From Procambarus clarkii (lineage: Eukaryota; Arthropoda; Malacostraca; Decapoda; Cambaridae), in the NCBI RefSeq assembly GCF_040958095.1, contig NC_091227.1, positions 14,630,262 to 14,694,261 of the forward strand: a DNA stretch of 64,000 nucleotides, given 5' to 3'. Numbering within the stretch: the first letter of the stretch is position 1; every line of letters starts with the position of its first letter. The notes beneath the pieces were generated by a model that saw only the letters and a program-made list of their open reading frames with translations, was not told the DNA's origin and ran no database searches. The position numbers and the translations under genes were made by a program. Of the stretch, positions 7,582 to 45,588 are shown piece after piece.

Positions 7582-9060
7582 TTAGTTTCCTTCGGGATCC
7601 AGATATCGTCCAATGAAGAGCAATAGTCCAGTTGGATTGTGTCTGACGGCGTAAAGGAATGCTCGGTCGAACGCCAGTGTTCCAACGTCGCTTTGTCGGT
7701 AGAAGGCTCCACCAGAGGGCCTCTTTGTGTCGTCACTGGCCGCAGGTAGTCCCATGCGGTCGATCCTATAGTCTTCAGACCCAAGATATACACTGCTTTT
7801 CTCAAAGTCGTTTTTGTAATACTGGTATTTGGGAGAGGCAGGTAAGATGTTTTCACTTTCCATCTGCGTCTTCGTTGTCTTCTGTGAAGTTAAGTTTTTC
7901 TGCTGAGGGAAGTTGTTTGGTGAGGTAGCATGCTGAGTGGAGTTATGTATAGATGTTGTCTGTTGTGAGGATTTTTGTTTTGTAGTGTTAGCAGGCGTTG
8001 TTTGCTGTGCAGAACTGTCTTTATGCGATGTGTGTTGTGGGAGGCTGCTATTTGAGGATTTCTGCTGCAATGGAGAAGTTAACGTAAAAGTCTCCTGTGT
8101 GGAATTGTCTTTCGAGGGAGTCAGCTGTGGAGAGTTGTCTGTCTGAGATGTCTTCTCTGTGAGGTTTTTCTTCGTTGAAGATAACTCCTGTGAGTTATCT
8201 GTCGAATACGTCTGCTGTGAGCTCTTTGTCGAGACCGCCTGCTGTGAGCTCTCTGTCGAGACCGCCTGCTGTGAGCTCTCTGTCGAGACTGCCTGCTGTG
8301 AGCTCTCTGTCGAGACTGCCTGCTGTGAGCTCTCTGTCGAGACAGCCTGCTGTGAGCTCTCTGTTGAGACAGCCTGCTGTGAACTCTCTGTCGAGACCCC
8401 CTGCTGTGAGCTCTCTGTCGAGACCGCCTGCTGTAAGCTCTCTGTCGAGGACGTGTGATGTGAGCTCTCTGTCGAGGACGTGTGATGTGAAGGCTTGTCT
8501 GTCGATGATGCCTGTTGTGGGAGATGATTCTCCGGAATTGTCTCTTGGGGGGAGACTAACAGGGAGGCCTCCTGCTGGAAATTGTTTCCCGTTGACCCCT
8601 GGTGTTGAGAGTTGCCCGTCGACGAGATCTGTTGAGTTTTAATACCTGTGGAGGGCGCCTTGCGCTTCGAAGTGTCTGTTGAAGACGCTTGTGTCAGAGA
8701 GCTTTTTGTTGGAGAGACTTGCCGTGGAAAATACTTACTGAAGATCTCGTCATAGTGGCCTCCTTCAGGATCCATGCGGGTGAGCTTCATCTTGTCCAGC
8801 TGCAGGTATTCTACCATGGGAAAGCCGTAGATATAAGTCGGTTGGTATAGAGTCCTGGAGTCTTCGGCTTCTTCTTCTTCGTCAGAATCACTTTCTTCTT
8901 CGTCAGAATCACTTTCTTCTGAAGGCGACCTCCTCGACCTGATGGCTCTCGATAGAGGAGGGCTCTCCACTTGGCATGATTGGAACTCAGTAAGCTGGAC
9001 GACATCACTAAGATGAAGATTTTTGACGTGGTTGATTCCTGAGAAGTCAGCTTTGCCTTC
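7582..9060 (-). CDS. Giant serpin gene, last exon (giant reactive-loop insertion and C-terminus)
   Basis: Acceptor TTAATTACACAG, then 492 codons and a TAA stop at 7584-7582. Exon residues 1-22 read EGKADFSGINHVKNLHLSDV, the serpin ADFSGI...L-x-[VI]-S-x-[VA] segment. Instead of the usual H-K-A-x-x-E-V-N-E-E-G-T-E-A hinge, the sequence goes to FQSCQVESPPLS, a candidate furin-type site RSRR (residues 41-44), and a Ser/Asp/Glu block (SDSDEEE twice). Later comes a long Ser/Thr/Gln region with about ten 9-residue repeats of the type QQAVSTESS. The ordinary serpin C-terminus returns at residues 464-492: FDRAFLYAVRHNPTGLLLFI then GRYLDPEGN, matching F-x-A-D-R-P-F-x-F-x-I-R-x-x-x-T-G-x-x-L-F-x-G-R. 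The gap between these two serpin blocks is about 440 residues, against about 40 in ordinary serpins. Confidence 0.93.
   Translation of the reverse strand, partial: EGKADFSGINHVKNLHLSDVVQLTEFQSCQVESPPLSRAIRSRRSPSEESDSDEEESDSDEEEEAEDSRTLYQPTYIYGFPMVEYLQLDKMKLTRMDPEGGHYDEIFSKYFPRQVSPTKSSLTQASSTDTSKRKAPSTGIKTQQISSTGNSQHQGSTGNNFQQEASLLVSPQETIPENHLPQQASSTDKPSHHTSSTESSHHTSSTESLQQAVSTESSQQGVSTESSQQAVSTESSQQAVSTESSQQAVSTESSQQAVSTESSQQAVSTESSQQAVSTKSSQQTYSTDNSQELSSTKKNLTEKTSQTDNSPQLTPSKDNSTQETFTLTSPLQQKSSNSSLPQHTSHKDSSAQQTTPANTTKQKSSQQTTSIHNSTQHATSPNNFPQQKNLTSQKTTKTQMESENILPASPKYQYYKNDFEKSSVYLGSEDYRIDRMGLPAASDDTKRPSGGAFYRQSDVGTLAFDRAFLYAVRHNPTGLLLFIGRYLDPEGN
8200..8500 (-). repeat. Coding minisatellite, 27-bp unit in the last serpin exon
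   Basis: Tandem 27-bp units (plus-strand core GAGCTCTCTGTCGAGAC followed by a GCCTGCTGT-like part) encode about ten 9-residue repeats QQAVSTESS with variants HHTSSTESS and QQGVSTESS. The unit is a multiple of three, so copy changes keep the frame. The array lies within the reactive-loop insertion. Confidence 0.9.
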
Positions 9061-9262
9061 CTGTGTAATTAAAAGGAAGAAAATTAAACGGGATATTGGA
9101 TTTGCGAAGGCACTGTGCCTGGCTCGTGAGAACGATTTTAATCAAGATTTCGTGAGTGGTTTGCAAGTGATGTGCTTCAGTATCAGATTTCTAGCACTGA
9201 ATATATTAGTGAAATCATGCTCTAGTTCTTGAACTAGAGCACGACTCTATGAACTCCCTGTG

Positions 9263-9421
9263 TTGACCAGACCACACACTAGAAGTTCAAGGGACGACGA
9301 CGTTTCGGTCCGTCCTGGACCATTCTCAAGTCGATTGTCATTCTCACAATCGACTTGAGAATGGTCCAGGACGGACCGAAACGTCGTCGTCCCTTCAACT
9401 TCTAGTGTGTGGTCTGGTCAA
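9263..9421. repeat. Near-perfect 159-bp palindrome (dispersed repeat arm)
   Basis: The left arm starts TTGACCAGACCACACACTAG and runs to CAAGTCGATTGT; the right arm is its complement around a short centre (TCATTC). Half-copies of the same arm (GACGACGACGTTTCGGTCCG) occur at 32014-32091 and 62162-62212. Confidence 0.92.
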
Positions 9422-9450
9422 CATACTTCAGCCACGTTATTGTGACTCAT
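9422..9450 (-). repeat. Dispersed repeat tag next to the palindrome
   Basis: ACTTCAGCCACGTTATTGTG next to the palindrome is the complement of the tag preceding the half-copy at 31990-32013 and of the one at 62030-62055, so the tag and arm form one repeat family. Confidence 0.7.
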
Positions 9451-9704
9451 CGCCTGCAACTCCCTGTGTTATTTTTTTCAGCAACGTTATTGTGACTTAT
9501 TTCATGCATAAGAACTCTCTCTACCTATCTGTTTATTAAAAAATAGTTTTAATTATCTACCTCTTACTCTTTAACTGTCTACTTGTTTGTTTTGTTTCCC
9601 TTTATCTCACCCAACACACCAATTCTTCGCTTCTCTTACTATTCATATTTCATTGCTTCATGCTTCCTTAACCCCATATTTGCTTCTCTCCCCCCCCCCC
9701 CCCT

Positions 9705-9895
9705 CGCCCAACCACTTGGGCTGGACGGTAGAGCGAAGGTCTCGCTTCAAGCAGATCGGCGTTCAATCCCCGACCGTCCATGTGATTGGACACCATTCCT
9801 CCCCCCCCCTCCCCCCACCGTCCCATCCCAAATCCTTATCCTGACCCCTTCCCAGTGATATATAGTCGTAATGGCTTGGCGTTTTCCATTGATAA
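9705..9895 (+). mobile_element. SINE-E, tRNA-like head
   Basis: The head GGGCTGGACGGTAGAGCGAA has a box A-like part and GCGTTCAATCCCCGACCGTC a box B-like part. It is followed by C-rich sequence and the phrase GATATATAGTCGTAATGGCT. A diverged relative of the head lies at 29105-29170. Confidence 0.7.
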
Positions 9896-10190
9896 TTCCC
9901 TCCCTTCTCCCCCCCCCCGTCCCCCTCCCTACTTTCTTCCCTACCTTTCCTCCCTCCCTACCTCCCTACCTTTCCTCTCTCCCTCCCTCCCTCCCTCCCT
10001 ACCTTTCCTCCCTCCCTCCCTACCTCCTACCTTTCCCCCCTCCCTCCCTCCCTCCTACCTTTCCTCCCTCCCTCCCTCCCTCCTACCTTTCCCCCCTCCC
10101 TCCCTCCCTCCCTCCCTCCTACCTTTCCCCCCTCCCTCCCTCCCTCCCTCCCTCCCTCCCTCCCTACCTTCCCTCCCTCCGTCCATCTCA
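9896..10190. repeat. (CCCT)n-rich pyrimidine tract
   Basis: About 290 bases of CCTCCCTCCCTACC-type repeats. Pro/Ser-rich open frames here are non-coding artefacts. Confidence 0.95.
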
Positions 10191-10583
10191 CCTGGAAAAG
10201 TTGACCAAGCCCCAGGCCTCCGAGGATGCTGGAGAAGTTATGGAAGGCTCTGTGACGAAACACTGGCATCTTTAACTGGACGGTATTGGGGAGCATTGAC
10301 CTCAATACCTGGCTCCATTTCTCCGGGTTCAGCGTTGACTCCAGCTGTAGGGTAATTGAGTGGTCAGTAGGTGGTGCTTGATGATGCATTAGGTGTAATT
10401 AACGACGTGATTGATGTACTTGATGTAATTGAGTAGGTGTAATTCTAGACTTGGTAGGTGTAAATAATAATTGGGTTTAATTCGAGAGTTGGTAGGTATA
10501 CGGGATGACTAGGGGAAAATTATTAGCCCCTAGTCACCTAATGGCTAGGTCACTATGGGCTCCGTTTTTCACGGAATCCCTAC
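10191..10583. other. Intronic sequence with short degenerate repeats
   Basis: Intron 8 of the serpin gene. Repeats of GATGTAATTGAGTAGGTGTAATT type occur at 10380-10500. No exon recognised. Confidence 0.5.
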
Positions 10584-10779
10584 CCGCCAAACACACACCG
10601 AAACTACGACGTTGGTACAACGTTCGAACAAGTTTTAACACCTAACCAGTTATAACAACCAATATAGCAAGTTGTAACAACGTTCTAATATGTCATAAAC
10701 ACGTTAAGCCAAGATGTAACAACTTTATTACAAGTTCTAACAAGCGGAAAATAGACAGTTTCGGTTTGTGTTTCCAGGG
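10584..10779 (+). mobile_element. MITE-1, copy 1
   Basis: About 195 bp. Terminal inverted repeats: left CCGCCAAACACACACCGAAA, right end TTTCGGTTTGTGTTTCC. The interior is rich in GTTGTAACAACGTT-type motifs. It shares over 90% of its sequence with the copies at 16859 and 42917. No open frame, so non-autonomous. Confidence 0.88.

Positions 10780-12157: not shown

Positions 12158-12203
<46 letters not shown>
12158..12203. repeat. (TA)n microsatellite
   Basis: TA tract bounding the left side of the SINE-B array. Confidence 0.97.
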
Positions 12204-12205
<2 letters not shown>

Positions 12206-12780
12206 CTGAAAACTCACACCCCAGAAGTGACTCGAACCCATACTCCCACAACTGGTATGTACAGGGACGCCTTAATCCGCTTGACCATCACGACCGGACA
12301 TAAGGAAGTGATAGCCGAGGCTATATGAACCACTTCCCCGCCGGCACTCGGATGGTAATCTTGGGCATAGCATTTTATCAAATCACCTCATTCTTTGGGG
12401 CACACGTGAGGAACACAAATGCAAACAAGCCTGAATGGTCCCCAGGACTATATACAACTGAAAACTCACACCCCAGAAGTGACTCGAACCCATACTCCCA
12501 CAACTGGTATGTACAGGGACGCCTTAATCCGCTTGACCATCACGACCGGACATAAGGAAGTGATAGCCGAGGCTATATGAACCACTTCCCCGCCGGCACT
12601 CGGATGGTAATCTTGGGCATAGCATTTTATCAAATCACCTCATTCTTTGGGGCACACGTGAGGAACACAAATGCAAACAAGCCTGAATGGTCCCCAGGAC
12701 TATATACAACTGAAAACTCACACCCCAGAAGTGACTCGAACCCATACTCCCACAACTGGTATGTACAGGGACGCCTTAAT
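12204..12780 (-). repeat. SINE-B tandem array, left arm (2.3 units of 252 bp)
   Basis: Units begin AACTGAAAACTCACACCCCA at 12204, 12456 and 12708 (252-bp spacing). The third is cut at 12780. On the minus strand each holds a tRNA-like box A (GGTCAAGCGGATTAAGG) and box B (GGGTTCGAGTC). The 76-residue open frames in the units are repeats of this non-coding element. Confidence 0.93.
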
Positions 12781-13372
12781 CATACCAGTTGTGGGAGTAT
12801 GGGTTCGAGTCACTTCTGGGGTGTGAGTTTTCAGTTGTATATAGTCCTGGGGACCATTCAGGCTTGTTTGCATTTGTGTTCCTCACGTGTGCCCCAAAGA
12901 ATGAGGTGATTTGATAAAATGCTATGCCCAAGATTACCATCCGAGTGCCGGCGGGGAAGTGGTTCATATAGCCTCGGCTATCACTTCCTTATGTCCGGTC
13001 GTGATGGTCAAGCGGATTAAGGCGTCCCTGTACATACCAGTTGTGGGAGTATGGGTTCGAGTCACTTCTGGGGTGTGAGTTTTCAGTTGTATATAGTCCT
13101 GGGGACCATTCAGGCTTGTTTGCATTTGTGTTCCTCACGTGTGCCCCAAAGAATGAGGTGATTTGATAAAATGCTATGCCCAAGATTACCATCCGAGTGC
13201 CGGCGGGGAAGTGGTTCATATAGCCTCGGCTATCACTTCCTTATGTCCGGTCGTGATGGTCAAGCGGATTAAGGCGTCCCTGTACATATCAGTTGTGGGA
13301 GTATGGGTTCGAGTCACTTCTGGGGTGTGAGTTTTCAGTTGTATATAGTCCTGGGGACCATTCAGGCTTGTT

Positions 13373-13374
<2 letters not shown>
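12781..13374 (+). repeat. SINE-B tandem array, right arm (inverted, ~2.4 units)
   Basis: From 12781 the same unit runs in the opposite orientation, with unit ends at 12836, 13088 and 13340 (again 252 bp). Together with the left arm it forms a palindrome of almost 1.2 kb centred on 12780/12781. Confidence 0.93.

Positions 13375-13405
<31 letters not shown>
13375..13405. repeat. (TA)n microsatellite
   Basis: TA tract bounding the right side of the SINE-B array. Confidence 0.95.
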
Positions 13406-14370: not shown

Positions 14371-14625
14371 AGGGGCCTCGTAGCCTGATGGATAGCGCGC
14401 AGGACTCGTAATTCTGTGGCGCGGGTTCGATTCCCGCACGAGGCAGAAACAAATGGGCAAAGTTTCTTTCACCCTGAATGCCCCTGTTACCTAGCAGTAA
14501 ATAGGTACCTGGGTGTTAGTTAGCTGTCACGGGCTGCTTCCTGGGGGTGGAGGCCTGGTCGAGGACCGGGCCGCGGGGACACTAAAGCCCCGAAATCATC
14601 TCAAGATAACCTCAAGATAAGATGT
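14371..14625 (+). mobile_element. SINE-A, full-length copy with intact tRNA-Thr-like head
   Basis: The head at 14375-14444 folds as a tRNA: acceptor GCCTCGT pairs with ACGAGGC, the anticodon stem CAGGA/TTCTG closes loop CTCGTAA (anticodon CGT, a Thr type), and the T arm is GCGGGTTCGATTCCCGC. The body continues with AAATAGGTACCTGGG, GGGCTGCTTCCTGG and CCGGGCCGCGGGGACACTAA, and ends in AAGATAACCTCAAGATAA. A tRNA gene is the alternative reading, but the shared 3' body in many copies shows a SINE. Confidence 0.93.
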
Positions 14626-17317: not shown

Positions 17318-17562
17318 TCATGGGATGGTTATGTAGCCCCCATGGGATGGTTATGTAGCCCCCATGGGATGGTTATGTAGCCCCCATGGGATGGTTATGT
17401 AGCCCCATGGGATGGTTATGTAGCCCCCATGGGATGGTTATGTAGCCCCCATGGGATGGTTATGTAGCCCCCATGGGATGGTTATGTAGCCCCCATGGGA
17501 TGGTTATGTAGCACCATGGGATGGTTATGTAGCCCCCATGGGATGGTTATGTAGCCCCATGT
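17318..17562. repeat. 23-bp minisatellite, ~10 copies
   Basis: Unit CATGGGATGGTTATGTAGCC with a run of 2-3 further C. Length varies by the C run (21-23 bp). Confidence 0.96.
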
Positions 17563-18350
17563 TAATAGGATTCAATTCCGGGGTCACTATTTCCATCATA
17601 GTCACTACTATCTTTCTCATCGTGTATAGTAATCTCGGGAACACGTTGAGCATCTTACCTGCGCCAGGCCATTAGCGATGAAGTTCTTCTGTTCGCCAGG
17701 CATCGCCAGCACAAGCGATAATTCGCCAGACGTTGAGTACAGAGGTATCTGAAGTGAGAATATAACGGTGAGTGAGGCGGCAGTAGGAAGGGGGCATTCG
17801 ATATGAGGTGAGGAGGAAAGAGTGTGCGTGTGTGAGAGAGGAGAAAGTATGAGGGAGGAAGAATGAGGCTTGGAATAGAGTGAGGAAAGGTATGTGAAGG
17901 TGTCGAGGTTGATAAGTTAAAGAAGATGGGAAATGAGGAGATGAGAGAAGAAGAGATTGGAGGTATCTAGGTAGGATATGAGAGAAGGAGAGATTGGAGG
18001 TACCTAGGTAGAATATGAGAGAGGAGAGAAGGTAGGGAGTGGGGCGAGGGGTATTAAAGCAGATACAACTGCGGAGACAAGTAAAATAAATTTCAGAGCC
18101 ATACAAAATATACATAATAATAAAACATAGTTCCGACTCTTGAAATAAATTAAGTCAAAGCTCTAGAGTATTGTTAGATCTCTTTCACACAGTAGAGAAA
18201 TATTTAAATTGAAATTCAAAAACATTATTCATAAATTGTTGTACATTTTGCGCCGTAATATGAATGCAAATGCAAATTCCTAATGTTAATACACACGATA
18301 TATATATATTTAAAATGCGAGATATATTCTCAGAGAAGCTGATTTAATAA
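17563..18350. other. Intronic sequence, GA-rich in part
   Basis: At 17800-18060 the plus strand is purine-rich, with a duplicated phrase (GAGAGAAG.AGAGATTGGAGG at 17943-18000). No exon recognised. Confidence 0.5.
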
Positions 18351-18363
18351 TATATATATATAT

Positions 18364-18748
18364 GTCGTACCTAGTAGCCAGAACTCACTTTTCGGCCTAC
18401 TATTCAAGGCCCGATTTGCCTAATAAGCCAAGTTTTCCTGAATTAATATATTTTTTCTAATTTTTTTCTGATGAAATGATAAAGCTACCCATTTCATTAT
18501 GTATGAGGTCATTTTTTTTTATTGGAGTTAAAATTAACGTAGATATATGACCGAACCTAACCAACCCTACCTAACCTAACCTAACCTATCTTTATAGGTT
18601 AGGTTTGGTTAGGTAGCCGAAAAAGTTAGGTTAGGTTAGGTTAGGTAGGTTAGGTAGTCGAAAAACAATTAATTCATGAAAACTTGGCTTATTAGGCAAA
18701 TCGGGCCTTGCATAGTAGGCTGACAAGTGCGTTCTGGCTACTAGGTAC

Positions 18749-18751
<3 letters not shown>
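18364..18751 (-). mobile_element. PAL-TA element, copy 2
   Basis: 388-bp palindromic element, GTCGTACCTAGTAGCCAGAA to its complement, with CCTAACCTAACCTAACC and TTAGGTTAGGTTAGG inside. Orientation opposite to copies 1 and 4. (TA)n on both sides. Confidence 0.87.

Positions 18752-18839
<88 letters not shown>
18752..18839. repeat. (TA)n microsatellite between two PAL-TA copies
   Basis: 88 bases of TA joining PAL-TA copies 2 and 3 head to tail. Confidence 0.98.
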
Positions 18840-19445
<606 letters not shown>

Positions 19446-19806: not shown

Positions 19807-20295
19807 GCTTATGTGTTGTGGCGGTGGAATATAAGCGAAATACACGAGATGGAAGTCTTCCATTTCCAACACCTCCACACAGCCATACGGAAGATCGTGG
19901 TAACATGGAATATAGTTTAAGTGGAGCACCTAAATTCCCTTTCCCCACTCTCACTTTTACAGTCTCTTGAACCACTGAGTGCTTATCCCTGGTAGGAGGT
20001 TTATGATGGTGCATTCTGCTTTTTGGGAATAAAGAAGTGGCAGCGTATTCCCTTGCATTAAAGTGTCACTTTTGTAGCACACCGCCACTAGACTCTCTCT
20101 TTTTAACCTCCAGAGATTGTTTAGGAGGGCGTCTAAAGGCCTGCCTCATGTTTTGTTCAGGTTTAAAATGGACATTTTACAACTTCCTGGTCGTTTACTA
20201 CTTCATGTTCCTGGAGATAACCAAAATGTTTTGACTAGTAAGCATATTCCGCTGATTTTATATTGTTAACATGTGCCTCTGGTGATATGCCTTCA

Positions 20296-20830
20296 GTGAC
20301 AGTGGAGTGACACACATGCCTCCAGTGACACTGAAGTGACACATATGCCTCCAGTGACACTGAAGTGACACACATGCCTCCAGTGACACTGAAGTGACAC
20401 ATATGCCTCCAGTGACACTGAAGTGACACACATGCCTCCAGTGACACTGAAGTGACACATATGCCTCCAGTGACACTGAAGTGACACATATGCCTCCAGT
20501 GACACTGAAGTGACACACATGCCTCCAGTGACACTGAAGTGACACATATTCCTCCAGTGACACTGAAGTGACACACATGCCTCCAGTGACACTGAAGTGA
20601 CACACATGCCTCCAGTGACACTGAAGTGACACACATGCCTCCAGTGACACTGAAGTGACACACATGCCTCCAGTGACACTGAAGTGACACACATGCCTCC
20701 AGTGACACTGAAGTGACACACATGCCTCCAGTAACACTGAAGTGACACATATGCCTCCAGTGACACTGGCGTGACACACATGCCTCCAGTGACACTGGCG
20801 TGACACACATGCCTCCAGTGACACACACAC
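20296..20830. repeat. 29-bp minisatellite, ~18 copies
   Basis: Unit CCAGTGACACTGAAGTGACA plus CACATGCCT. Because 29 is not a multiple of three, all three minus frames stay open with rotated versions of the same peptide. That, and the absence of splice sites, marks these open frames as artefacts. Confidence 0.97.
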
Positions 20831-24073: not shown

Positions 24074-24232
24074 CTCAGCGGACGTCACTCCAGCCGCTCT
24101 GGAAAACCCGGCGTTTAGCGTCATCTTTTTCCGGAGTCCCACTGTCCGGATGAGACGGCGCTCAGCCGTCGGGAACCGGATAAAGTGCATATCTACCAGT
24201 TCCTGCTGAAGAACCGGCAGACTCCAGCGAGC
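24074..24232 (-). CDS. Giant serpin gene, exon 8 (serpin core, helix H to strand 6A region)
   Basis: 53 codons, phase 0 to 0, acceptor CGTCTCCTCCCACAG, donor GAG|GTGAGT. It was found by reading splice sites because the open frame is short. It reads ARWSLPVLQQELVDMHFIRF, then PTAERRLIRTVGLRKKMTLN and ends AAGVTSAE. MHFIRFP corresponds to the serpin pattern V-x-[LI]-P-[KR]-F and the following L-x-x-x-[LV]-x-x-x-G/M-x-x-x-F to the segment before strand 1C. It joins in frame to EGKADFSGI of the last exon, as expected for the family ADFSGI motif. Against family spacing, about 80-95 residues are missing between exon 7 and this one. Confidence 0.83.
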
Positions 24233-25373: not shown

Positions 25374-25855
25374 GGGGACTGTGGGAGACACTTGGGGACT
25401 GTGGGAGACACTTGGGGACTGTGGGAGACACTTGGGGACTGTGGGAGACACTTGGGGACTGTGGGAGACACTTGGGGACTGTGGGAGACACTTGGGGACT
25501 GTGGGAGACACTTGGGGACTGTGGGAGACACTTGGGGACTGTGGGAGACACTTGGGGACTGTGGGAGACACTTGGGGACTGTGGGAGACACCTGGGGACT
25601 GTGGGAGACACTTGGGGACTGTGGGAGACACTTGGGGACTGTGGGAGACACTTGGGGACTGTGGGAGACACCTGGGAACTGTGGGAGACACTTGGGGACT
25701 GTGGGAGACACTTGGGGACTGTGGGAGACACTTGGGGACTGTGGGAGACACCTGGGGACTGTGGGAGACACTTGGGGACTGTGGGAGACACTTGGGGAGT
25801 GTGGGAGAAACTTGGTAACTTCGAGAGACACTTGGGGATTGTAGAAGACACTTGA
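25374..25855. repeat. 20-bp minisatellite, ~24 copies
   Basis: Unit GGGGACTGTGGGAGACACTT, nearly perfect for ~20 copies and degenerate at the right end. Unit length 20 keeps all frames open with a 60-base period, so the open frames on both strands are artefacts. Confidence 0.97.
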
Positions 25856-26349
25856 GGACTTTAGAAGAAGCTCATATGAAATATTTTGACTACAATGCAC
25901 TTGAAAAAACCCTCCTTTCAACTCACACTCAGACCTTTTACGTCAGATATTTCACGAAATCGAAGCAGTTTTTTTTCTCCAACGAAAACACCTAACCTTG
26001 GCCTATGTATGAAGTCATAATATACGAAATTAATATATGAATTCTACCAATATTGGTAATTAACTATGATTAATTATATTATCTGCATGGGAGTAATATT
26101 AATCAAACTTCATACAATATAAATACATAATAAATCAACATTTTTCTCCTGTTAAGAAACCTCCATCGCCATACTCCGCTAAATTAAGTTTGACTAATTA
26201 GGGGTAGTTAAATTAGGATTGGTTAGATTAGGTTAAGGGATTTTTCATGACTTACTCATATCCTTCATTAACCTTAAATATCTTTACCTGAAACAAATTT
26301 GTCCAGAATCTTTAGAAAAACGTAAGTAGCTGTAAGGAGCAAGTTAGAA

Positions 26350-28456: not shown

Positions 28457-28681
28457 GTGGAAGAAGCTGGTGGCGACGGCGGTGAGGGGCGGGGTGAGGA
28501 ACAAGGGTTCATTCTCCAGCAGGAATTCGTCTACCCTGCCTTTGGTCCTGTTCCTAATGAGGTCGTTGACTCGCTGGCGGACCGTGGCGTCCAGATCGGC
28601 CGGATCCGCATCCTCAATCACGGCATCGTAAAACACTTTGATGGTCCGGGCGAAGAAGTCGGTGGAGTAGGGGTTCCTCTC
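28457..28681 (-). CDS. Giant serpin gene, coding exon 7 (serpin core, helices E-F and strand 3A)
   Basis: 75 codons, phase 0, acceptor CACTCCTTCAG, donor CAC|GTGAGT. It reads ERNPYSTDFFARTIKVFYDA, later VRQRVNDLIRNRTKGRVDEF and TPPLTAVATSFFH. This follows the serpin pattern of a Y-x-A segment, then [IV]-N-x-W-[IV]-x-x-x-T-x-G-[KR]-[IV], and then the strand 3A pattern in which N-A-[IV]-Y-F is replaced by A-T-S-F-F. The Trp usual in INxWV is Leu here, and the Asn of NAIYF is Thr, so the core is divergent. After FFH the family normally continues with G-x-W-x-x-x-F, which is not in this exon or in the next one found. Confidence 0.92.
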
Positions 28682-30660: not shown

Positions 30661-30912
30661 CTTCTCCACGAGGAACTGACTGAGAAGAGCAACGTCGTGG
30701 ATGTCCTCCATCTCCTGCACCGCCTGAGTTACATTCTTGAGAATGAGGTGGGGGTTGAAGGTGTAGAACTTATCCATCTGCAGCAGGTCACTGAGGGCAC
30801 CCGAGGAAGAGCCGCGAGCCCCAAGGAGTAGCATCCCGAGGGTGGAAATAAGACTCAAGGGTGACATGACAAAGTTCCTTCGCTTGTGCTGGCTAGCGGC
30901 CTGCTTGTACAC
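30661..30912 (-). CDS. Giant serpin gene, coding exon 6 (serpin core, helices A-D region)
   Basis: 84 codons, phase 0, acceptor CTACTTTCGCAG. It reads VYKQAASQHKRRNFVMSPLS, then LISTLGMLLLGARGSSSGAL. This is the serpin signature of strand 6B/helix B (N-[VF]-x-x-SP-x-S-[IL]-x-x-x-L-x-M-x-x-x-GA-[RK]-G). The rest (HDVALLSQFLVEK) corresponds to the family's A-x-x-L-F-V-Q-K. Donor choice: AAG|GTCAGC at 30661/30660 fits best and gives a good serpin alignment across the junction. A second in-frame donor, CAG|GTCGTG at 30652, would add Val-Ser-Gln. One sequon (NVT) is present. Confidence 0.92.
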
Positions 30913-31129: not shown

Positions 31130-31945
31130 TCTCCAAGTCCATTCCATCCAGAGGTCGACCCCAAAGACGCATTCATCAATTTTAACATTCTGCTCATTCA
31201 AAATAGGAATTTTCTCAAATATACATTAATATTATTATATAATGTGTATATTTAGGTACTGGTTAGGTTAGGTTAGGTTAGGTTAGGTTAGGTTAGGTTA
31301 GGTTAGGTGTTTTAGGTTCTGTTGGCGATTATTTTTATTACGTGGGTGAAGCATTTACAGCGTTGTGGTTCGAACAAAAGTCGTCAACGAAGCACTTGTT
31401 CCAGAAGTGTTCGGACGTCATCAGTTGTGAGTCGCTTGTAAACAGTTTTTCATTTAAAAACAAGTGGGGGGGTTGGCGGGTGCATAGAATGAACTTTGGC
31501 CTTTGTTTATGAAGACGGGCTGGTACACGACGGTGTAGGGAGAAACCAGTGACTGAACAACCCGTCAACGACTCCATTACATCCAGTGGTCCAGCCCGTC
31601 CTCCAAACAAAGACCCAAAAGTGATTCCATGTACCCGCCAAACACCCTGTTTATGAATGAAAAACGGTTTACACACGACTCACAGCTGATTTCATTTGAA
31701 CACTTACGGAACAAGTGCTTCACTCACGAATTCTGTTCGAACCACAACGGTGTAAATGCTTCACCCACGTACTACAAATACAAATAATCGCCAACGGAAC
31801 CTGAACACCTAACCTATGCCTATATATGCACAAAATGCTAATATATTATAATAATAATTTATATTTGATTAAATTCCTGTTTAGAATGAACAACATGCAA
31901 AAGTGTGTGAATGCGTCTGTGGGGTCGACCGCTGCATGTAATGAA
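31130..31945. mobile_element. Large foldback element (~815 bp) with TTAGG array
   Basis: Outer arms: CCATCCAGAGGTCGACCCCA, GACGCATTCATCA and GGCGATTA at left match the complement of ATAATCGCC, GAATGCGTCTG and GGGGTCGACCGCTGCATG at right. Nested inner arms: CGTGGGTGAAGCATTTACAG and TGTGGTTCGAAC at left match GTTCGAACCACAACGGTGTA at right. The centre is near 31540. No transposase frame seen. It belongs with the foldback at 21655. Confidence 0.82.
31262..31308. repeat. Interstitial (TTAGG)n array
   Basis: Nine to ten tandem GGTTA/TTAGG units, the arthropod telomere motif, on one arm of the foldback. Confidence 0.95.
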
Positions 31946-33587: not shown

Positions 33588-33887
33588 CTTGAAAGTAATA
33601 TCGTTCATGACATTTACGAACTCCCTAACATCGGGATGAAGGCCTTCGACGGAGGCCTCCAAGCCCGGGTTGTCTTCGGGAGCTTTCAGGAGTGTGGCTG
33701 TGGGCTCTGGAGGTCCCCCATGGTCCCCGTGGTCCCCGTGGTGGTGGTGGTGGTGGTCGTCATGGTGGTGGTCGTCATGGTGGTGGTCGTGGTAGGGACT
33801 CGTGGCGTTGGGTCCCGGGAAGTCCAGTTTATCCGTGCTATTCAGGGTGGGTCGCTTTTCTTGCATCACGTCGTAGTTGTAATAGTC
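33588..33887 (-). CDS. Giant serpin gene, coding exon 5 (His-rich tract, start of serpin core)
   Basis: 100 codons, phase 0 at both ends, acceptor TTTCCCATCAG, donor AAG|GTAACG. It opens with DYYNYDVMQEKR, continuing the acidic tyrosine-rich stretch of exon 4. Codons 33-60 are almost only His, Asp and Gly (HDHHHDDHHHDDHHHHHH then GDHGDHGG), a likely divalent-metal-binding tract. The last ~25 residues (HPDVREFVNVMNDITFK) match the pattern of serpin helix A, which runs straight into VYKQ of exon 6 (compare the family pattern F-x-x-x-L-Y-K-x-L). Two sequons (NST, NAT) are present. The tandem codons CAC/GAC create a purine/pyrimidine-biased stretch that gives opposite-strand open frames; these are shadows. 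Confidence 0.9.
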
Positions 33888-34548: not shown

Positions 34549-36639
34549 CTCGGGAATGTTATCGAGGTAGACAGGTGAACCATAGTAATCATAGAAGTTG
34601 TCCCCTTCTGTCAGGTTCCCGTTGTTGACCTCTAGCGCCTCCAAATCAATCCGGTCTTGATAACCGCTATCAGCCAGCTGCGATGGTGGGAGGACGTTGG
34701 AGTCGCTGGCGCTACTGTCTATGTAGTTGGTGTCTGAGGAGTTTGGTAATGGTGCCGGTCGTGGTAGGTCTTGGTCAGCCAGTGAGGGTCGTGGTCTTAG
34801 TGGTGTGAAAGAAGTAATTGATGGGTATCGTGTGGCTGCAGGTGGTTGTGTCGAGTCCTGTGTGTTTGGCTCATTAGTGAAGTCAAATTGCGCTGTAATT
34901 CCTAAGATTGGTGGTTGTTGTTTGGTGGAGTCATCCAAAGAAGGCTCTTGGGTGGTAGTCAAATCCTGAGTAAGTGTATTTCTAATACCGAGGACATTAT
35001 TTACAAGATTTTGTGTTTGGGTAGAAAGCAAGGAGGGTGTTGGTTGTGGAATTCCATCTTCAGTCAGGTTCCTAAGAGCCTCTTGGATCGATAAAGAAAA
35101 CTCATTCTGAGGGCTATCAGGAGAGTTGGGTTCCGGACGGACCTCGAGAAACGATCCAGGGCCTTCATATGGACGTAAGGGCCGGTCTTGCTGGCTTGCA
35201 GTCAAAGAATTTGGCGCTTGAGTGCTGCTTGCGGGTACTTGCCCTTCAACTGGGATAATATCATAGGGACTGTCTGGTGAAGAGGGATTGCGAAGGTCAA
35301 TGGATAGAACATTGTCATTGTCGAGGGAAATGGTTGTCCTGCTGGGTGCATTAGTTGCTGGTGTCAAGTTGTTATAATCGGGCTGTGTAAGTGCCATTGG
35401 ACCTTCAGGGGTATTGATTCTATGTGAGGCTGAGGGTAACGTGGTGGCTCGTAAATGCTGTTTTAAAGTAGGTATTTTTTGAGTTGTTTCATCTATCGTG
35501 GGAATTTCAGTTGCTCTCTCTGTTGCAGAATAGACTGATGCAACAAATGGCGGAGGTTGAGTTCTAATAGAAGAGGTGGTCTGAGTGTCTTTCAGAGTTT
35601 CTGTAATTGGTGGCTCTGACATATGAGTGGTTTCAGAATCCTCGAGGAAGATATTTGTGGCAAAATCCATGAAAGCCGACTGGAATGGCGAGAGGGTTGA
35701 GGCATTAGTCTCTACTCTGTGTTGTATCGCAGTAGCCTCTCGAACTGGGCCATTGACCGTCGTTGTTAGACTCGTAGGCTGTGGAGACTCGTCGCTACTG
35801 TAGGACTGTGCATACAGGTCTGTGAGAGTTAAGAGCAGTGGGTCTCCTCTGTCGAGTTTGGTCGTTAGCAGGTTACTATTTTCCTCAGTTGTGATGGTAA
35901 CTTGAAGTGGGTTGTTGGTCGTGAACGCTGAGACGGTCGAGGAGTCCTCCTCAACCTCTCCAGCACTGAGTGTTGTCATTCCACTCGAGTCCTGAGCATC
36001 ACCTGAAGCGTTACCTATGTAATTCCACACATTTAGACTGTTAGAAGTGACATCATTTGGAATGACAGTCTCAGACAGTCCACCTGGCCTGGAATGATAA
36101 TCATCAGTGAGATATAGATCATGCCGAGTACTCGACTCTCCTTCCTCGACTTCCAGAGATTGCTCGTTCCATCCAGGAAAACGACTGTTCCATCTGTTGT
36201 TATTCGGCCGATTAGTGGTCTGGTCGACACCATCTGGTGCCTCGGTGACGAAAACTTCCCTCGTAATTATATCTTGGAGAGTAGTAGAAGCCTCGGGGGT
36301 AATGGTGGTAGTAATTGTTGTAGCAGTGGTGGTTGTAGCAGACTGGTTCCTAGGAGACCCTGTGGTGGAAGCCTGAGTGAAGGCTGACGGGAAGACGGTG
36401 GTGACAGGCTGGTCTCTGGGAGACCCGGTGTATGCAGTCTGGGGAAGAGTGGACGGGACGTCGGTGACAGGAGTGACGGTCGAGGGAGACGGCCACGGGG
36501 TCGTGAGATGATGTGGGAAGCTGAGAAGGTTCTGCAGGATTGCCTCTGGGATCTCCATGGACTCCCCGGAGGGCTGGGTGAGGTCTGCTGGAAAGTTGGT
36601 CGGCTGTTGGTGATTCTGGGCGACCTCGGACGACACGAC
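34549..36639 (-). CDS. Giant serpin gene, coding exon 4 (mucin-like Thr/Ser/Pro region)
   Basis: A single 2,091-base exon of 697 codons, phase 0 to phase 0, acceptor TTCTGGCAG, donor GAG|GTAAGG. It begins VVSSEVAQNHQQ. Composition is dominated by Thr, Ser, Pro, Asn, Gln, Asp and Glu, with Thr runs near codons 100-120 and no cysteine. Several N-glycosylation sequons are visible (NQS, NAS, NLT, NSS). This is the composition of a mucin-like, O-glycosylated, extended segment; no folded domain is recognised. The last ~35 residues are different: acidic and tyrosine-rich (NFYDYYGSPVYLDNIPE), continuing into the next exon. In the reconstructed protein it covers about residues 154-850, before the serpin core. 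The long open frame, the single long exon and matching phases argue strongly against chance. Opposite-strand open frames here are shadows. Confidence 0.88.
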
Positions 36640-37396: not shown

Positions 37397-37555
37397 CTGT
37401 TGAACGGTAGAGATGACGCCCTGGATGCTGTCCTCAGGACGGGATGGGAGGGAAGGTCGAGGTTGGCTGATGGGGGTCAACTCTCCCCCTGTCTGAAATT
37501 GAAAGTTGACGCACGCACTTCCTTCTCCGAGAGGCCCAAGCTCGAACAGAAGATC
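37397..37555 (-). CDS. Giant serpin gene, coding exon 3
   Basis: 53 codons in phase 0 at both ends, donor CAG|GTGAGT, acceptor CGCAG. The sequence begins DLLFELGPLGEGSACVNF and ends IQGVISTVQQ. It carries one of only two cysteines found in the recovered protein (the other is in the last exon). The polypyrimidine tract of the acceptor is itself a perfect (CT)n microsatellite (37561-37589 read on the minus strand), so tract length may vary between alleles. No domain is recognised. The residues PRPSLPSRPEDS are proline-rich and lead into the mucin-like exon. Confidence 0.8.
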
Positions 37556-37556
37556 C

Positions 37557-38574: not shown

Positions 38575-38758
38575 CTGTATTTCCTGGAGAGAGATCCACT
38601 TCTGAACCAGCTGTCTGTCCACACCATACACATAGAACTGGAATCTCTTGAGACCATCTGGGATAACTGGACGCTCTGGATGCTCTGAACGCAGGCGGTC
38701 TGGAAGCTGTTGCTCCGGTAACGAGGACGCTTCGAGCGGTTGCCTAGGCGACGCCCAC
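38575..38758 (-). CDS. Giant serpin gene, coding exon 2
   Basis: Acceptor CTCCCTCCCAG at 38759-38760, donor CAG|GTGTGG at 38575/38574. The exon enters in the phase left by exon 1 and leaves in phase 0, giving 61 codons with no stop. The sequence starts WASPRQPLEASS and includes RFQFYVYGVDRQLVQKW and ISLQEIQ. It is richer in hydrophobic and aromatic residues than the following mucin-like exon, so it may be a small folded N-terminal segment. I recognise no known domain. The donor is acceptable but not optimal (G at +3 instead of A). Confidence rests on phase agreement with both neighbours and on the open frame. Confidence 0.7.
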
Positions 38759-38924: not shown

Positions 38925-39425
38925 GCGTATAGGAACTTTTTTACCCCCCTTATGAAGTCCAGGATAATCTTACATTCCCCCTATGAAGTATAGGATAATC
39001 TTACCTTCTTTCTATGGAATACAGGATAATCTTACCCTCGCTCTATGGAATACAGGGTAATTTTACCCTCTCCCTATGGAGTACAGGATAATCTTACCTT
39101 CGCTCTATGGAGTACAGGATAATCTTACCCTCGCCCTATGGAGTACAGGGTAATTTTACCCTCGTCCTATGGAATACAGGATAATCTTACCCTACATCCG
39201 GTTTACAGGATAATCTTACCCTACATCCGGTTTACAGGATAATCTTACCCTACATCCGGTTTACATGATAAACTTTCCTTCATATGACGTACAGGATCAT
39301 TTAAAACCTTTCTGTAACATACATAATAATCTCAGTCTCCCTTTTATATACAAGATCCCCTTAATCTTCCTATGATGCAAGGGATCATCTCGACCTCCTT
39401 TTGGTGTACAGGATCCTTTTAACGT
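38925..39425. repeat. Degenerate ~31-bp minisatellite
   Basis: Units around ACAGGATAATCTTACCCTCG plus CCTATGGAGT, with a 28-bp variant (CATCCGGTTTACAGGATAAT) three times at 39196-39260. About 15 diverged copies. Confidence 0.85.
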
Positions 39426-40990: not shown

Positions 40991-40992
40991 TT

Positions 40993-41268
<276 letters not shown>

Positions 41269-41499: not shown

Positions 41500-41502
<3 letters not shown>

Positions 41503-41587
<85 letters not shown>
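41503..41587. repeat. (TA)n microsatellite
   Basis: TA tract abutting PAL-TA copy 5. Confidence 0.97.
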
Positions 41588-41590
<3 letters not shown>

Positions 41591-41976
41591 GTACCTAGTA
41601 GCCAGAACGCACTTCTCAGCCTACTATGCAAGGCCCGATTTGCCTAATAAGACAAGTTTTCCTGAATTAATATATTTTCTCTAATTTTTTTCTTAAGAAA
41701 TGATAAAGCTACCCATTTCATTATGTATGAGGTCAATTTTTTTGTATTGGAGTTAAAATTAATGTAGATATATGACCGAACCTAACCAACCCTACCTAAC
41801 CTAACCTAGCCTATCTTTATAGGTAAGGTTAGGTTAGGTAGCCGAAAAAGTTAGGTTAGGTTAGGTTAGGTAGGTTAGGTAGTCAAAAAAACAATATTTC
41901 ATGAAAACTTGGCTTATTAGGCAAATCGGGCCTTGCATAGTAGGCTGAGAAGTGCGTTCTGGCTACTAGGTACGAC
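41588..41976 (-). mobile_element. PAL-TA element, copy 5
   Basis: 389 bp, orientation as in copies 2 and 3. TTAGGTTAGGTTAGGTAGG inside. A short (TA)n follows at 41977-41990. Confidence 0.87.
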
Positions 41977-42235
41977 ATATATATATATATAAATATGGAA
42001 AATGGAAATGAAAAAGAATTGTTGTGGTTTCGGCTTATGGAATGTCGTAAATATGGAAACACCAGTGATGTTTTTTTTCATCAGTTAAAATAAATTTGAC
42101 CAAAGTTATGACTAAGTTAGCGCTCTTGGTTTGCAAACGTAGAAGTTATATTAGATTATAACTTCATGAAGGCATTTGCAGTTTTTGTTTGCCTTTTAGA
42201 ATTAACAGTTTTTGTAACGGAGTTTGAAAAATTAA

Positions 42236-42239
<4 letters not shown>

Positions 42240-42304
<65 letters not shown>

Positions 42305-42330
42305 TATATATTATATATATAATATATATG
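42240..42330. repeat. (TA)n with ATATTATA variants
   Basis: TA tract with variant right end, not associated with a PAL-TA copy. Confidence 0.95.
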
Positions 42331-42417
42331 AGGGCTTAATTACATATATATATGAGTGATACTGGCATTATAATGGCATCCATTGGAGGAGACAATGTAC
42401 TTTTAACTTTTTGTGTG

Positions 42418-42500
42418 TGTGTATTCACCTAGTTGTGCTTGTGGGGGTTGAGTTCTGCTCTTTCGGGCCCGCTCTCAACTGTCAATCAATCAATTGTTAC
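42418..42500 (+). repeat. Dispersed repeat (GTACTCACCTAATTGTGCTT family), partial
   Basis: GTATTCACCTAGTTGTGCTT, GGGGGTTGAGTTCTGCTC, CTCAACTGTCAATCAATC; relative of 30287. Confidence 0.75.
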
Positions 42501-42539
42501 TAACTACTAACTTTTTTTCCTCCTCATACACACACACAC

Positions 42540-42715
42540 GCCTAGGAAGCAGCCCGTAACAGCTATCCAACTCCCAGGTACCTATATACTGCTAGGTAAC
42601 AGGGACATCGGGGTTGAAAGAAACTCTGCCCATTTTGTTTCTGCCATCACTGGGGGATCGAACCTTGACCTTAGGATTACGAGTCCAGAGCACTGCCCAT
42701 TCAGCTATCAGGGCC
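42540..42715 (-). mobile_element. SINE-A, 5' part
   Basis: Minus orientation: GGAAGCAGCCCGTAACAGCT, CAGGTACCTATATACTGCTA, GGGGATCGAACC, then the tRNA-like head. Confidence 0.82.
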
Positions 42716-42916
42716 TCCTTGTACATGTGTATATGCACACAATGTATATGTGTTTAAGCCACACATACGTCTGTGTGTATGTGTCTTTATGTATTTCATC
42801 ACTAATCATCTAATATAACAGGGTATTATTATCCTCTCTATTTACTCGTATCTACATTAGCTTCAGTTTCCTTCAGTATCAGGAGCTCCACTTTAAGATG
42901 ATTGGCTTCAGCAGCC

Positions 42917-43126
42917 ACCCTGGAAACACAAACCGAAACTGTCTCTATTTTCCGCTTGTTACAACTTGAAATAAAGTTGTTACATCTTGGCTTAACGTGT
43001 TTATGACGTATTAGAACGTTGTTATAACTTGCTATATTGGTTGTTATAACTGGTTAGGTGTTGTTAAAACTTGCTCGAACGTTGTACCAACGTCGTAGTT
43101 TCGGTGTGTGTTTGGTGGGCATCTGG
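42917..43126 (-). mobile_element. MITE-1, copy 3
   Basis: Ends CCTGGAAACACAAACCGAAA and GGTGTGTGTTTGGTGGG, interior in the opposite orientation to copies 1 and 2. No target duplication obvious. Confidence 0.87.
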
Positions 43127-43670
43127 TCCTGCGTTCTTTTAATTAATACCGACATATTTTCAACGCCTCTTGATGGTATAGATTTTTAATTTCGTTTTAA
43201 TTGAAATGACATAAAAATCAGGTTTACTTTTTTTAAAATTCGTCACTTTTTTTTTACCATTGTCATAGTTTTTTTTTAGCTTATTTCTATATTTTTTTAA
43301 CTTCATTATTATCCATCGTTTGCACCATTGTCATAGGTTTTTTAGCTTATTTCTATATTTTTTTAACTTTATTATTATCCATCGTTTTTGTCGTGCACAT
43401 CTAGTACACGACAAAGAAAATCGTCTTTACAAACGACAAGTTCTGTATCGTTTGCGTTTGAGGATATCACTGCTATCATGTGTAATATAGAATGTACAAT
43501 ATATGGTAAATTGTGATCAAGGATTGTGATCAATGTCATCAATGATTCCAATTTTTTTTCAAGTCGACATGAGATGACAGAAAGAATAATGTCAAGGTAT
43601 TAATTCTCAATGGAAAAGTTGATTAAAATTACATTCAAACATCATCATCGATCTGAAGCCAATTGATTAA
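43127..43670. other. Intron 1 sequence, T-rich
   Basis: A ~60-bp segment is duplicated (TTTTTTTAGCTTATTTCTAT and ATTATTATCCATCGTTT at 43265-43325 and 43335-43388). Confidence 0.65.
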
Positions 43671-43673
43671 TTT

Positions 43674-44338
43674 TGGAACACTCTTACTGAAGGTAAACCG
43701 CCGTCTGCTCTCCCTGGAACACTCTTACTGAAGGTAAACCCCCGTCTGTTCTCCCTGGAACACTTTACTGAAGGTAAACCGCCGTCTGCTCTCCCTGGAA
43801 CACTTTACTGAAGGTAAACCACCGTCTGTTCTCCCTGGAACACTTTACTGAAGGTAAACCCCCGTCTGTTCTCCCTGGAACACTTTACTGAAGGTAAACC
43901 ACCGTCTGTTCCCCCTGGAACACTTTACTGAAGGTAAACCCCCGTCTGTTCTCCCTGGAACACTTTACTGAAGGTAAACCGCCGTCTGCTCTCCCCGGAA
44001 CACTTTACTGAAGGTAAACCACCGTCTGTTCTCCCTGGAACACTTTACTGAAGGTAAACCCCCGTCTGTTCTCCCTGGAACACTTTACTGAAGGTAAACC
44101 CTTGTCTGTTCTCCCTGGAACACTTTACTGAAGGTAAACCGCCGTCTGTTCTCCCTGGAACACTTTACTGAAGGTAAACCACCGCCTGTTCTCCCTGGAA
44201 CACTTTACTGAAGGTAAACCACCGTCTGTTCTCCCTGGAACACTTTACTGAAAGTAAACCCCCGTCTGTTCTCCCTGGAACACTTTACTGAAGGTAAACC
44301 GCCATCTGTTCTCCCTGGAACACTTTACTGAACATAAA
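43674..44338. repeat. 40-bp minisatellite, ~16 copies
   Basis: Unit GGAACACTTTACTGAAGGTA plus AACCCCCGTCTGTTCTCCCT. Variants (ACCGCC, ACCACC, ACCCCC) alternate along the array. Confidence 0.97.
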
Positions 44339-44546
44339 TCGAATCTTTCCACCATGGAACATTTTATTGAAGTGTACCGAGGATTATTAAAGCAACAACA
44401 AATCCCTACAAACCCAAAAGCAAGTATACTTTAGTCCTGAACATGGTCCTGTATAAAGTAAACTCTCAGTGAATATACACTGATAAACGTGGTAGATTTC
44501 TACGTGTATATATATCCCAGTGTAAAGGTAACGGGTCAATATCCCT

Positions 44547-44806
44547 GGGGCCAGATTCACGAAGCAGTTACGCAAGCACTTACGAACGTGTACATCTTTT
44601 CTCAATCTTTGACGGATTTGGTTACATTTATTTAACAGTTTACAAGCATGAAAACTTCCCAATCAACTGTTGGTATTGTTATAAACAGCCTCCTGGTGCT
44701 TCGGGGTTCATTAACTGTTTAATAATTGTAAACAAAGCCGCCTAAGATTGAGAAAAGATGTAAAGGTTCGTAAGTGATTGCGTAACTGCTTCGTGAATCT
44801 GGCCCC
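44547..44806 (+). mobile_element. MITE-2, copy 1
   Basis: 260 bp. Terminal inverted repeats of ~45 bp starting GGGGCCAGATTCACGAAGCA and ending in TGCTTCGTGAATCTGGCCCC. The interior holds AACAGCCTCCTGGTGCTTCG. The copy at 53783 matches throughout. Confidence 0.9.
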
Positions 44807-45472
44807 TGGTGTCCGGTTTTTCGTGTGTTTCCAAGGAAACTCAATCTCCCTTCTACAGCGTCCTGATGGGTATATCGCACGCTCTGATCAGCCGTGTTGA
44901 GATCGGCCCGCATAATCTTCCCGTTTCCATCAGATACAATGAGGTAACACAAATTTATTTTTTTCAGCGTTCCTCATCTTTTACCGAAAGGCTGGTTTAG
45001 GCAGAGCGCGGAGCTGCGCGCAGGACAGATTCCGTTACCATACACACCGCAAATTGGAATTCGATGAAGGAGACGCCAAACTGGTTCATGTGTTTGCCAC
45101 GAAGCTGGTCGTCTGGAAGTCTATCACTCATAAATTCCGTTTCTTCGCCGTCATGAGGAGGGAGCCAACGGTCTGCTGCTTCTCCTCCTCCTCCCTCATG
45201 TCTCCAGAAAGCCAGAAGGATCGTTTATCATATCCAATGCTCCTAAATCACATCTTTAGTAAACCTTGCCATAATAAATCTACCTTTTATCTTATAACAA
45301 TAACTTCGCCAAGGGTAAACAAAAAATATTAAAGACTACCGTTACAAATCTCTCCAATGACCAACTAGTCAGCAGAAACTAAATTTACAGAGAAATAAAG
45401 CCTACATTGTAGTCCTTTGTCGGGGCTCTGGACCCCTTTCAACGCGTCCAATTCAACTCCGGCGACACTTAC
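44807..45472. other. Intron 1 sequence near exon 1, no exon supported
   Basis: Open frames on both strands at 44809-45332 are moderately coding-like, but no start, splice or family motif supports them. TCTCCTCCTCCTCC runs explain part of the openness. Confidence 0.45.
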
Positions 45473-45588
45473 CCCAGAACAGCAGAAGGGTTGGAGTGGC
45501 TGGAGTCTGCCAGGGATGCTGGACTTCCTAGCATCGTCAGGAGAGCAAATAACACCTGATGAAACGACTGTTGCATCCTGAAGGCCAT
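45473..45588 (-). CDS. Giant serpin gene, coding exon 1 (signal peptide)
   Basis: Start codon at 45588-45586 on the minus strand. The 38 complete codons begin MAFRMQQSFHQVLFALL and continue to a small-residue cleavage region (GSPASLADSS), a good secretory signal peptide with a predicted cut near ALA/SLA-D. The donor is GG|GTAAGT with the exon ending at 45473 in phase 2. A pyrimidine-rich acceptor (CTCTCTCTCTCCACAG) lies 3 bases upstream of GGAATGG, so at least one untranslated 5' exon should exist further upstream (above 45,600); I did not find it. The split glycine codon joins cleanly to the exon at 38758. The role is inferred: it sends the serpin product into the secretory pathway. The next Met is at codon 5, so the true start could be either. 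Confidence 0.75.

Follow-up and report, generated by a model that had tools for sequence, protein, structure and literature searches.

A predicted non-inhibitory serpin scaffold of Procambarus clarkii and other decapods, with two long arms and a furin-type site in a giant reactive-centre loop

The serpin fold is generally regarded as fixed, about 350-450 residues long, with a short loop that decides function. Here we describe a gene on the minus strand of a 64,000-nucleotide stretch of the crayfish Procambarus clarkii genome (contig NC_091227.1, positions 14,630,262 to 14,694,261; this whole stretch is called the window below, and coordinates count from its first base). The sequence holds one gene model, with a secreted-type N-terminus, a serpin body, no inhibitory hinge, a giant reactive-centre loop, a furin-type site and an invariant cysteine. 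We put at about 0.5 the probability that the product is an ancient, decapod-conserved, secreted-type, convertase-processed, non-inhibitory serpin scaffold with two disordered arms. A preliminary description made from the DNA letters had not noted that the hinge is lost, that the loop is giant or that a furin-type site is present; together these features suggest that the likely function shifts from that of an inhibitor to that of a non-inhibitory scaffold.

A search with the exon-joined model (E up to 0.01, 5942 candidates) gave nine decapod proteins, the best being the NCBI-predicted P. clarkii protein (P0001, 1735 residues). The eight further orthologs, of 1513-1590 residues, come from Cherax, Homarus, three Penaeus, Palaemon, Macrobrachium and Halocaridina, and the order of parts is identical in all nine full-length proteins. 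A second, shared-word search for relatives (500-1590 amino acids, E up to 0.001, 7987 candidates) listed 12 matches: six are decapod orthologs, P0010 and P0011 are partial contigs, and the other four, P0012-P0015, are generic serpins. The nine full-length proteins and the two contigs form the set of 11 sequences used below. A strict search with a cut-off of 1e-20 returned P0010 alone, which says little. Among the matches listed in these length-bounded, shared-word searches no relative with this layout was seen beyond the named decapods and the two contigs, and "decapod-restricted" means only that nothing else turned up in them; no brachyuran crab is named among the matches listed either, which may reflect model length or database content.

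The serpin body is readily recognised. The Pfam serpin family PF00079 matches the P. clarkii protein with 142.6 bits (cut-off 27) over residues 944-1267, corresponding to profile positions 3-313 of 370, and a second stretch is reported without a printed position. The other two scanned proteins, P0004 and P0009, score 160.8 and 158 bits, and PF00079 is precomputed for all nine full-length proteins; an NCBIfam scan gave nothing above a cut-off. Among the best 60 of 168 profile matches, the closest solved structure is PAI-2 (E 1.1e-25), which aligns over its residues 12-322 with 90.6 bits, while its C-terminus (357-382) contributes only 1.5 bits; for many PAI-1 chains in the same 60 the top-scoring stretch is the C-terminal strands, matching the last strands of the P. 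clarkii protein. As the body and the last strands are matched, the reactive-centre loop is the part without a counterpart. The protein thus belongs to the serpin superfamily by a PF00079 match above the gathering score and by a body and C-terminal strands that flank the reactive loop. In the eight orthologs the body is 64-87% identical to that of P. clarkii, and the last 33 residues (s1C-s5B) are 88-100% identical.

What follows the body is not that of an inhibitory serpin. All 11 sequences read FQSCQ in the strand that leads into the hinge, and at the hinge position the alignment has proline, acidic and bulky residues. An inhibitory hinge pattern, taken from the drosophilid consensus as given in the accessible text of PMC2770083, matches none of the 11 sequences and all four ordinary serpins (P0012-P0015), V having been added to [ET] so that P0015 (EKGTVAAAAT) counts; without V, three of the four match. 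These four are distant matches, prokaryotic by look, and as a control they bear on the pattern and not on arthropod descent. By the hinge rule, absence of the inhibitory hinge means that the protein is not an inhibitor. The distance from the hinge cysteine to s1C is 160-431 residues in all 11 sequences, against 21-22 residues in the same alignment columns of the four ordinary serpins, and annotated reactive loops span 20-28 residues across 78 UniProt entries in the part of PMC13215094 consulted. None of the 11 has a loop of the ordinary length of inhibitory serpins. The features of this region in P. clarkii are as follows.

8974..8976, minus strand: Cys1272, hinge cysteine, invariant across all 11 sequences
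7684..8973, minus strand: expanded reactive-centre loop, aa 1273-1702; the first Pfam stretch ends at residue 1267
8929..8940, minus strand: furin-type site (aa 1284-1287, R-S-R-R) where P1 formerly lay; its last Arg is at C+15
8806..8838, minus strand: conserved loop motif TYIYGFPMVEY, aa 1318-1328
8188..8519, minus strand: coding minisatellite within the loop, 27-bp unit (nonapeptide STESSQQAV-like)
7585..7683, minus strand: C-terminal serpin strands s1C-s4B-s5B, aa 1703-1735

The loop lies in exon 11 and is a second low-complexity region of about 430 residues. Islands within it are kept: a TYIYGLPMxEY motif near the start, whose surroundings (aa 1317-1329) are 62-100% identical in the eight orthologs, and, towards its end, motifs resembling RMG and YYRQ. 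The repeats show 14-48% identity to the P. clarkii protein. The P. clarkii minisatellite has about 12 copies of its 27-bp unit and a protein period of 9, while the loop repeats have a period of 10 in Cherax and 12 in Homarus; in P0004, P0007 and P0009 no period in the loop exceeded a match fraction of 0.16, while P0005, P0006 and P0008 lay outside this test. Unlike periods at the same place suggest that the repeats expanded separately in these three related lineages.

At the start of this loop lies a candidate processing site. The strict furin-type motif R-X-[KR]-R, with its last arginine at C+15 to C+18 counted from the invariant cysteine, occurs in 8 of 11 sequences, and 10 of the 11 have the broader proprotein-convertase motif R-X-X-R between C+12 and C+20. 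Beyond this span of positions the strict motif was found once in 14,791 positions, in an intron-like segment of Penaeus indicus considered below, and R-X-X-R 24 times. The site reads RSRR, RRSR, RQSR, RVRR, RARR, RTKR or RRKR in different lineages; residues vary and the position is kept, which speaks for selection on a furin-type site. The cysteine aligns to P16, or to P18 without a gap, so that an ordinary P1 would be expected at C+15 to C+17. From the last arginine to s1C there are 145-416 residues, placing the growth of the loop on the P' side.

A basic motif at the P1 distance could also be a bait, and Drosophila Spn42Da and human SERPINB8 have an R-X-[KR]-R-type sequence in their P1 region, as the crayfish protein does. 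In ordinary serpins about 8 residues lie between P1 and s1C. Spn42Da and SERPINB8 inhibit furin, as described in the available portions of PMC13215094, and on that model the crayfish protein would be an active inhibitor of furin-like convertases or of another Arg-specific protease, a proposal that the strict motif in 8 of 11 sequences fits. We regard it as very unlikely, given that the hinge pattern is missing from every sequence, that acidic, proline and bulky residues stand where small ones are needed, and that 145-416 residues, instead of about 8, separate the last arginine from s1C.

Cys1272 is the sole cysteine in three of the nine full-length proteins (P0003, P0004 and P0005), and the other six have one to three more, mostly near the N-terminus; in P. 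clarkii there is one, Cys115. A lone cysteine in a protein that would be secreted suggests a disulfide to another molecule.

From these features a mechanism can be proposed for the non-inhibitory scaffold. A proprotein convertase would cut the loop during secretion, yielding an N-chain that comprises the arm together with the serpin body, and also a C-chain, an acidic or Ser/Thr/Gln-rich tail ending in s1C-s4B-s5B. The chains would stay together because these strands are built into the fold. The serpin body would then act as a clamp showing two long, charged, probably glycosylated disordered arms, in the extracellular matrix or the hemolymph. The invariant cysteine may link a partner or a second copy, and a His-rich tract in the N-terminal arm may bind metal or a surface. 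As to how such a protein arose, we tentatively suggest that an ancestral inhibitor with an arginine at P1 lost its hinge and kept its scissile bond for a convertase. The P' side would have lengthened, in part through minisatellites that expanded independently, and become a second functional domain, and the fold would now be a two-chain clamp with a cross-linking cysteine.

Angiotensinogen is the carrier of a peptide, and the conserved motif downstream of the conserved furin-type site could be viewed in the same light. Convertases would then release a bioactive peptide around TYIYGLPMxEY from the loop, with the serpin as carrier. By eye, no consistent second basic site follows the motif across the sequences, and the motif is succeeded by long variable sequence; this explanation is in our view quite unlikely.

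Several points weigh against the two-chain scaffold. Cleavage, secretion, glycosylation, two-chain assembly and every function are proposals drawn from sequence. In local shuffles between the cysteine and TYIYG, none of 5000 reached 8 of 11 (mean 0.1, maximum 3), but the shuffle ignores ortholog kinship, and the span of C+12 to C+20 was set after the sites had been seen. The ortholog counts are not independent, as the set includes three Penaeus, two palaemonids, three astacideans and the P0010/P0011 pair; independent cases of the site come down to three named lineages (Astacidea, Penaeus and Palaemonidae) plus that pair. Halocaridina (P0009) has neither R-X-[KR]-R nor R-X-X-R at the site, and cleavage there would not be universal. 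Palaemon and Macrobrachium have one extra cysteine in the serpin core, where pairing within the protein is possible. The ortholog models are, moreover, mostly automatic predictions.

The gene is real. All 1735 residues of P0001 were placed on the minus strand of the window with zero mismatches, as 11 coding exons with GT-AG at 10 of 10 introns. P0001 most likely comes from the same genome and so gives no independent proof of splicing; the independent support for the gene model is the eight other decapod species. The preliminary description had both gene limits exactly right (first coding base 45,588, stop codon ending at 7,582, minus strand). Its joining of exons in frame holds, with canonical splice sites, and its count of nine gave way to 11. 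Our own by-eye joining had missed three short core exons (8-10), which are spread among large repeat-rich introns, and its exon 3-4 junction was doubtful; it was replaced by the P0001 mapping. Exon 4 starts at 36,639 in the NCBI model, which makes its upstream open frame (DVNRFWQ) intronic. Scanning the sequence ahead of exon 1 for promoters and terminators gave no more than shuffles did, and the patterns used are bacterial and uninformative for this gene. The coding exons, in the order of the protein, are listed here.

45473..45588, minus strand: coding exon 1, aa 1-39, start codon and signal-peptide-like N-terminus (exact P0001 match, GT donor, hydrophobic stretch)
38575..38758, minus strand: coding exon 2, aa 39/40-100, holding the greater part of the conserved N-terminal block (aa 69-108)
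37397..37555, minus strand: coding exon 3, aa 101-153 (P0001 mapping)
34549..36639, minus strand: coding exon 4, aa 154-850, long cysteine-free Thr/Ser/Pro-enriched arm
33588..33887, minus strand: coding exon 5, aa 851-950, conserved LDFPGPNATSPYH, His-rich tract and start of the serpin core
33723..33797, minus strand: His-rich tract, about aa 881-905
30661..30912, minus strand: coding exon 6, aa 951-1034, serpin core, NFVMSPLSLISTLGMLLLGARG
28457..28681, minus strand: coding exon 7, aa 1035-1109, serpin core
24074..24232, minus strand: coding exon 8, aa 1110-1162, serpin core (P0001 mapping)
17659..17748, minus strand: coding exon 9, aa 1163-1192, serpin core (P0001 mapping)
10192..10344, minus strand: coding exon 10, aa 1193-1243, serpin core (P0001 mapping)
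7582..9060, minus strand: coding exon 11, aa 1244-1735 and stop, from ADFSGI to s5A, then the expanded reactive-centre loop and s1C-s4B-s5B

That exons 1-5 belong to the same gene as the rest, as had been proposed, is borne out as far as gene models go: they are joined in the gene models of nine species, and exon 5 spans both parts. The His-rich tract and the first serpin helix both lie in exon 5, so that a gene boundary placed after it would run through the serpin domain. The layout is the same in eight other decapods, which makes a mis-join of two genes unlikely. More broadly, an artefact, whether two genes mis-joined or an unspliced intron read as the loop, gains something from the fact that P0001 is an automatic prediction and that one ortholog has an apparent retained-intron segment near its N-terminus. 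Against it, the same join is made in nine species, and the loop stays open for about 430 codons and carries conserved motifs in all 11 sequences, which differ in length; we take an artefact to be extremely unlikely. The ortholog in question is P0006 (Penaeus indicus), in which an extra segment of about 36 residues, at about residues 93-128, is absent from the other eight full-length orthologs and is probably a retained intron.

The N-terminal arm comprises about 920 residues before the serpin domain. The N-terminus is hydrophobic in all nine full-length proteins, in keeping with the signal peptide noted beforehand; the highest other hydrophobic peak (19-residue mean 1.78-1.90) falls in the serpin helix NFVMSPLSLIST, and the profile therefore gives no sign of a membrane anchor. 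Conservation along the arm, as identity to P0001 across the eight orthologs, is uneven. Residues 69-108 (consensus IPDGxxxFQFYxYGxxxQLVQxWxSLQEIQDLL) are 48-72% identical and residues 140-191 are 52-73% identical, residues 192-810 are variable (22-48%), and residues 811-905, including LDFPGPNATSPYH and the His tract, are conserved again (57-83%). The His tract has 11-26 histidines per 60 residues in all nine full-length orthologs. The variable region contains 15% Thr, 12% Ser and 11% Pro (27% Ser+Thr).

The preliminary description had proposed a mucin-serpin fusion with more than 900 residues before the core, about 700 of them in one Thr/Ser/Pro-rich, cysteine-free exon. The length stands, the Pfam match beginning at residue 944, and the serpin motifs that it quoted are present. 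Exon 4 (36,639-34,549) encodes 697 residues and no cysteine, but its enrichment is moderate, Ser+Thr peaking at 38% over 100 residues anywhere in the P. clarkii arm. The proposal of a single secreted-type protein that joins a long Ser/Thr-rich arm to a serpin core is upheld; the word "mucin" fits only loosely, given the moderate Ser/Thr content, the lack of any other Pfam domain in the three proteins scanned and of a strong arm repeat period shared by six species. "Mucin-like" is a loose description, not membership. VWD, SEA and cysteine-knot domains are associated with mucins; no mucin-associated domain was found in the three of nine proteins scanned (P0001, P0004 and P0009), where PF00079 was the sole Pfam match at E up to 1. 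Windows of mucin-type density, by our own threshold of at least 40% Ser+Thr and at least 5% Pro over 100 residues, occur in three of nine orthologs, so the protein is not classed as a mucin. In P. clarkii all 30 dense windows (on Ser+Thr) lie within the loop and none in the arm; Homarus has 75 (70 loop, 5 arm), all 43 of Palaemon are in the arm, and Macrobrachium peaks at 31% Ser+Thr. No strong arm repeat period was common to the six species tested. Among these six, a repeat with a period of about 24 stands out in the arm of Palaemon (P0007).

A mucin-like structural protein of the extracellular space, along the lines of the preliminary description, would suit part of this picture: the long O-glycosylated arm would do the work, with the serpin domain left as a relic or serving as an anchor, and the loop would have no specific processing. 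It has in its favour a Ser/Thr/Pro-enriched arm of about 620 residues, a second region rich in Ser/Thr/Gln, arm windows of 40% Ser+Thr in Palaemon (43) and Homarus (5), 9-21 N-glycosylation sequons per full-length protein, and database names ("mucin-4", assigned automatically to P0001, and "mucin-17-like" or "uncharacterized" for others). Dense windows in only three orthologs, confined to the loop in P. clarkii, and the low peak of Macrobrachium speak against such a protein, as does the serpin being the sole domain in the proteins scanned. The serpin body and the last strands are among the best-conserved parts, unlike a relic, and the furin-type site is left unexplained. We therefore hold this account to be unlikely.

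Relative to the serpin superfamily (PF00079), the body and C-terminal strands are shared, whereas the hinge is absent, the loop has 160-431 residues and an arm of about 900 residues precedes the core. C1 inhibitor (SERPING1) also has a mucin-like N-terminal domain before its serpin domain, but in the consulted text of PMC9361472 this arm is 112 residues long and the protein is an active inhibitor with an arginine at P1 and a hinge. Drosophila Spn100A, according to the accessible part of PMC2770083, has 653 residues; an insertion of 294 residues follows its initial 44 residues of serpin homology, and it retains some of the hinge residues. The crayfish serpin body is unbroken (profile 3-313) and its insertion is in the reactive loop, which sets the two apart by description; on that description orthology with Spn100A, which was considered first, does not seem to fit, its published insertion lying inside the serpin body. 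None of the 12 matches listed in the second search (7987 candidates) was an insect-named protein. Necrotic (Spn43Ac) is an arthropod serpin with a poorly conserved N-terminal extension of 69-145 residues and is listed as inhibitory in the same portion of PMC2770083; the crayfish arm is far longer. Iripin-8, another arthropod serpin, has an unusually long, rigid reactive loop with an arginine at P1 and is an active inhibitor, with no insertion of hundreds of residues in the description available from PMC8431025.

From these published descriptions, as far as the sources were available, none of the nearest analogues is known to combine these features. That no such serpin had been described, as supposed at the outset, holds for the open-access literature searched, in the text available from it (including PMC3348937, PMC3654919, PMC8233489, PMC3494705 and PMC7430823), and an open-access search by three locus names found no paper. 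The sequences were already deposited as predictions under misleading or empty names; the reading is the new part.

Several repeats lie elsewhere in the window. The introns hold very regular minisatellites with periods of 20 to 40 bp and 94-97% matches (17319-17558, 20287-20824, 25374-25860, 39175-39275 and 43674-44332). Two adjacent tandem arrays of 252-bp period, whose consensus units look reverse-complementary, occupy 12197-13377 (assigned to intron 9), a 478-bp unit is duplicated in tandem with 95% matches at 18350-19317 (intron 8), and (GGTTA)n, which we take to be the arthropod telomere-type repeat, is present at 31261-31308 (intron 5). Two tRNA-Thr(cgt)-like genes (14375-14445 and 59246-59316, plus strand) lie on recurring sequence with near-identical minus-strand translation, and probably represent a tRNA-derived interspersed repeat rather than a pair of tRNA genes.

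If the scaffold reading is true, it would show how a serpin fold can be reused once inhibition is lost, with a processing site kept where the bait once lay. Should the bait indeed have become a maturation site, the fold would have found a new use, kept across shrimps, prawns, lobsters and crayfish, in a protein that its database names make easy to overlook. For crustacean biology it would offer a testable target, with two predicted chains, a free or bridging cysteine and metal binding.

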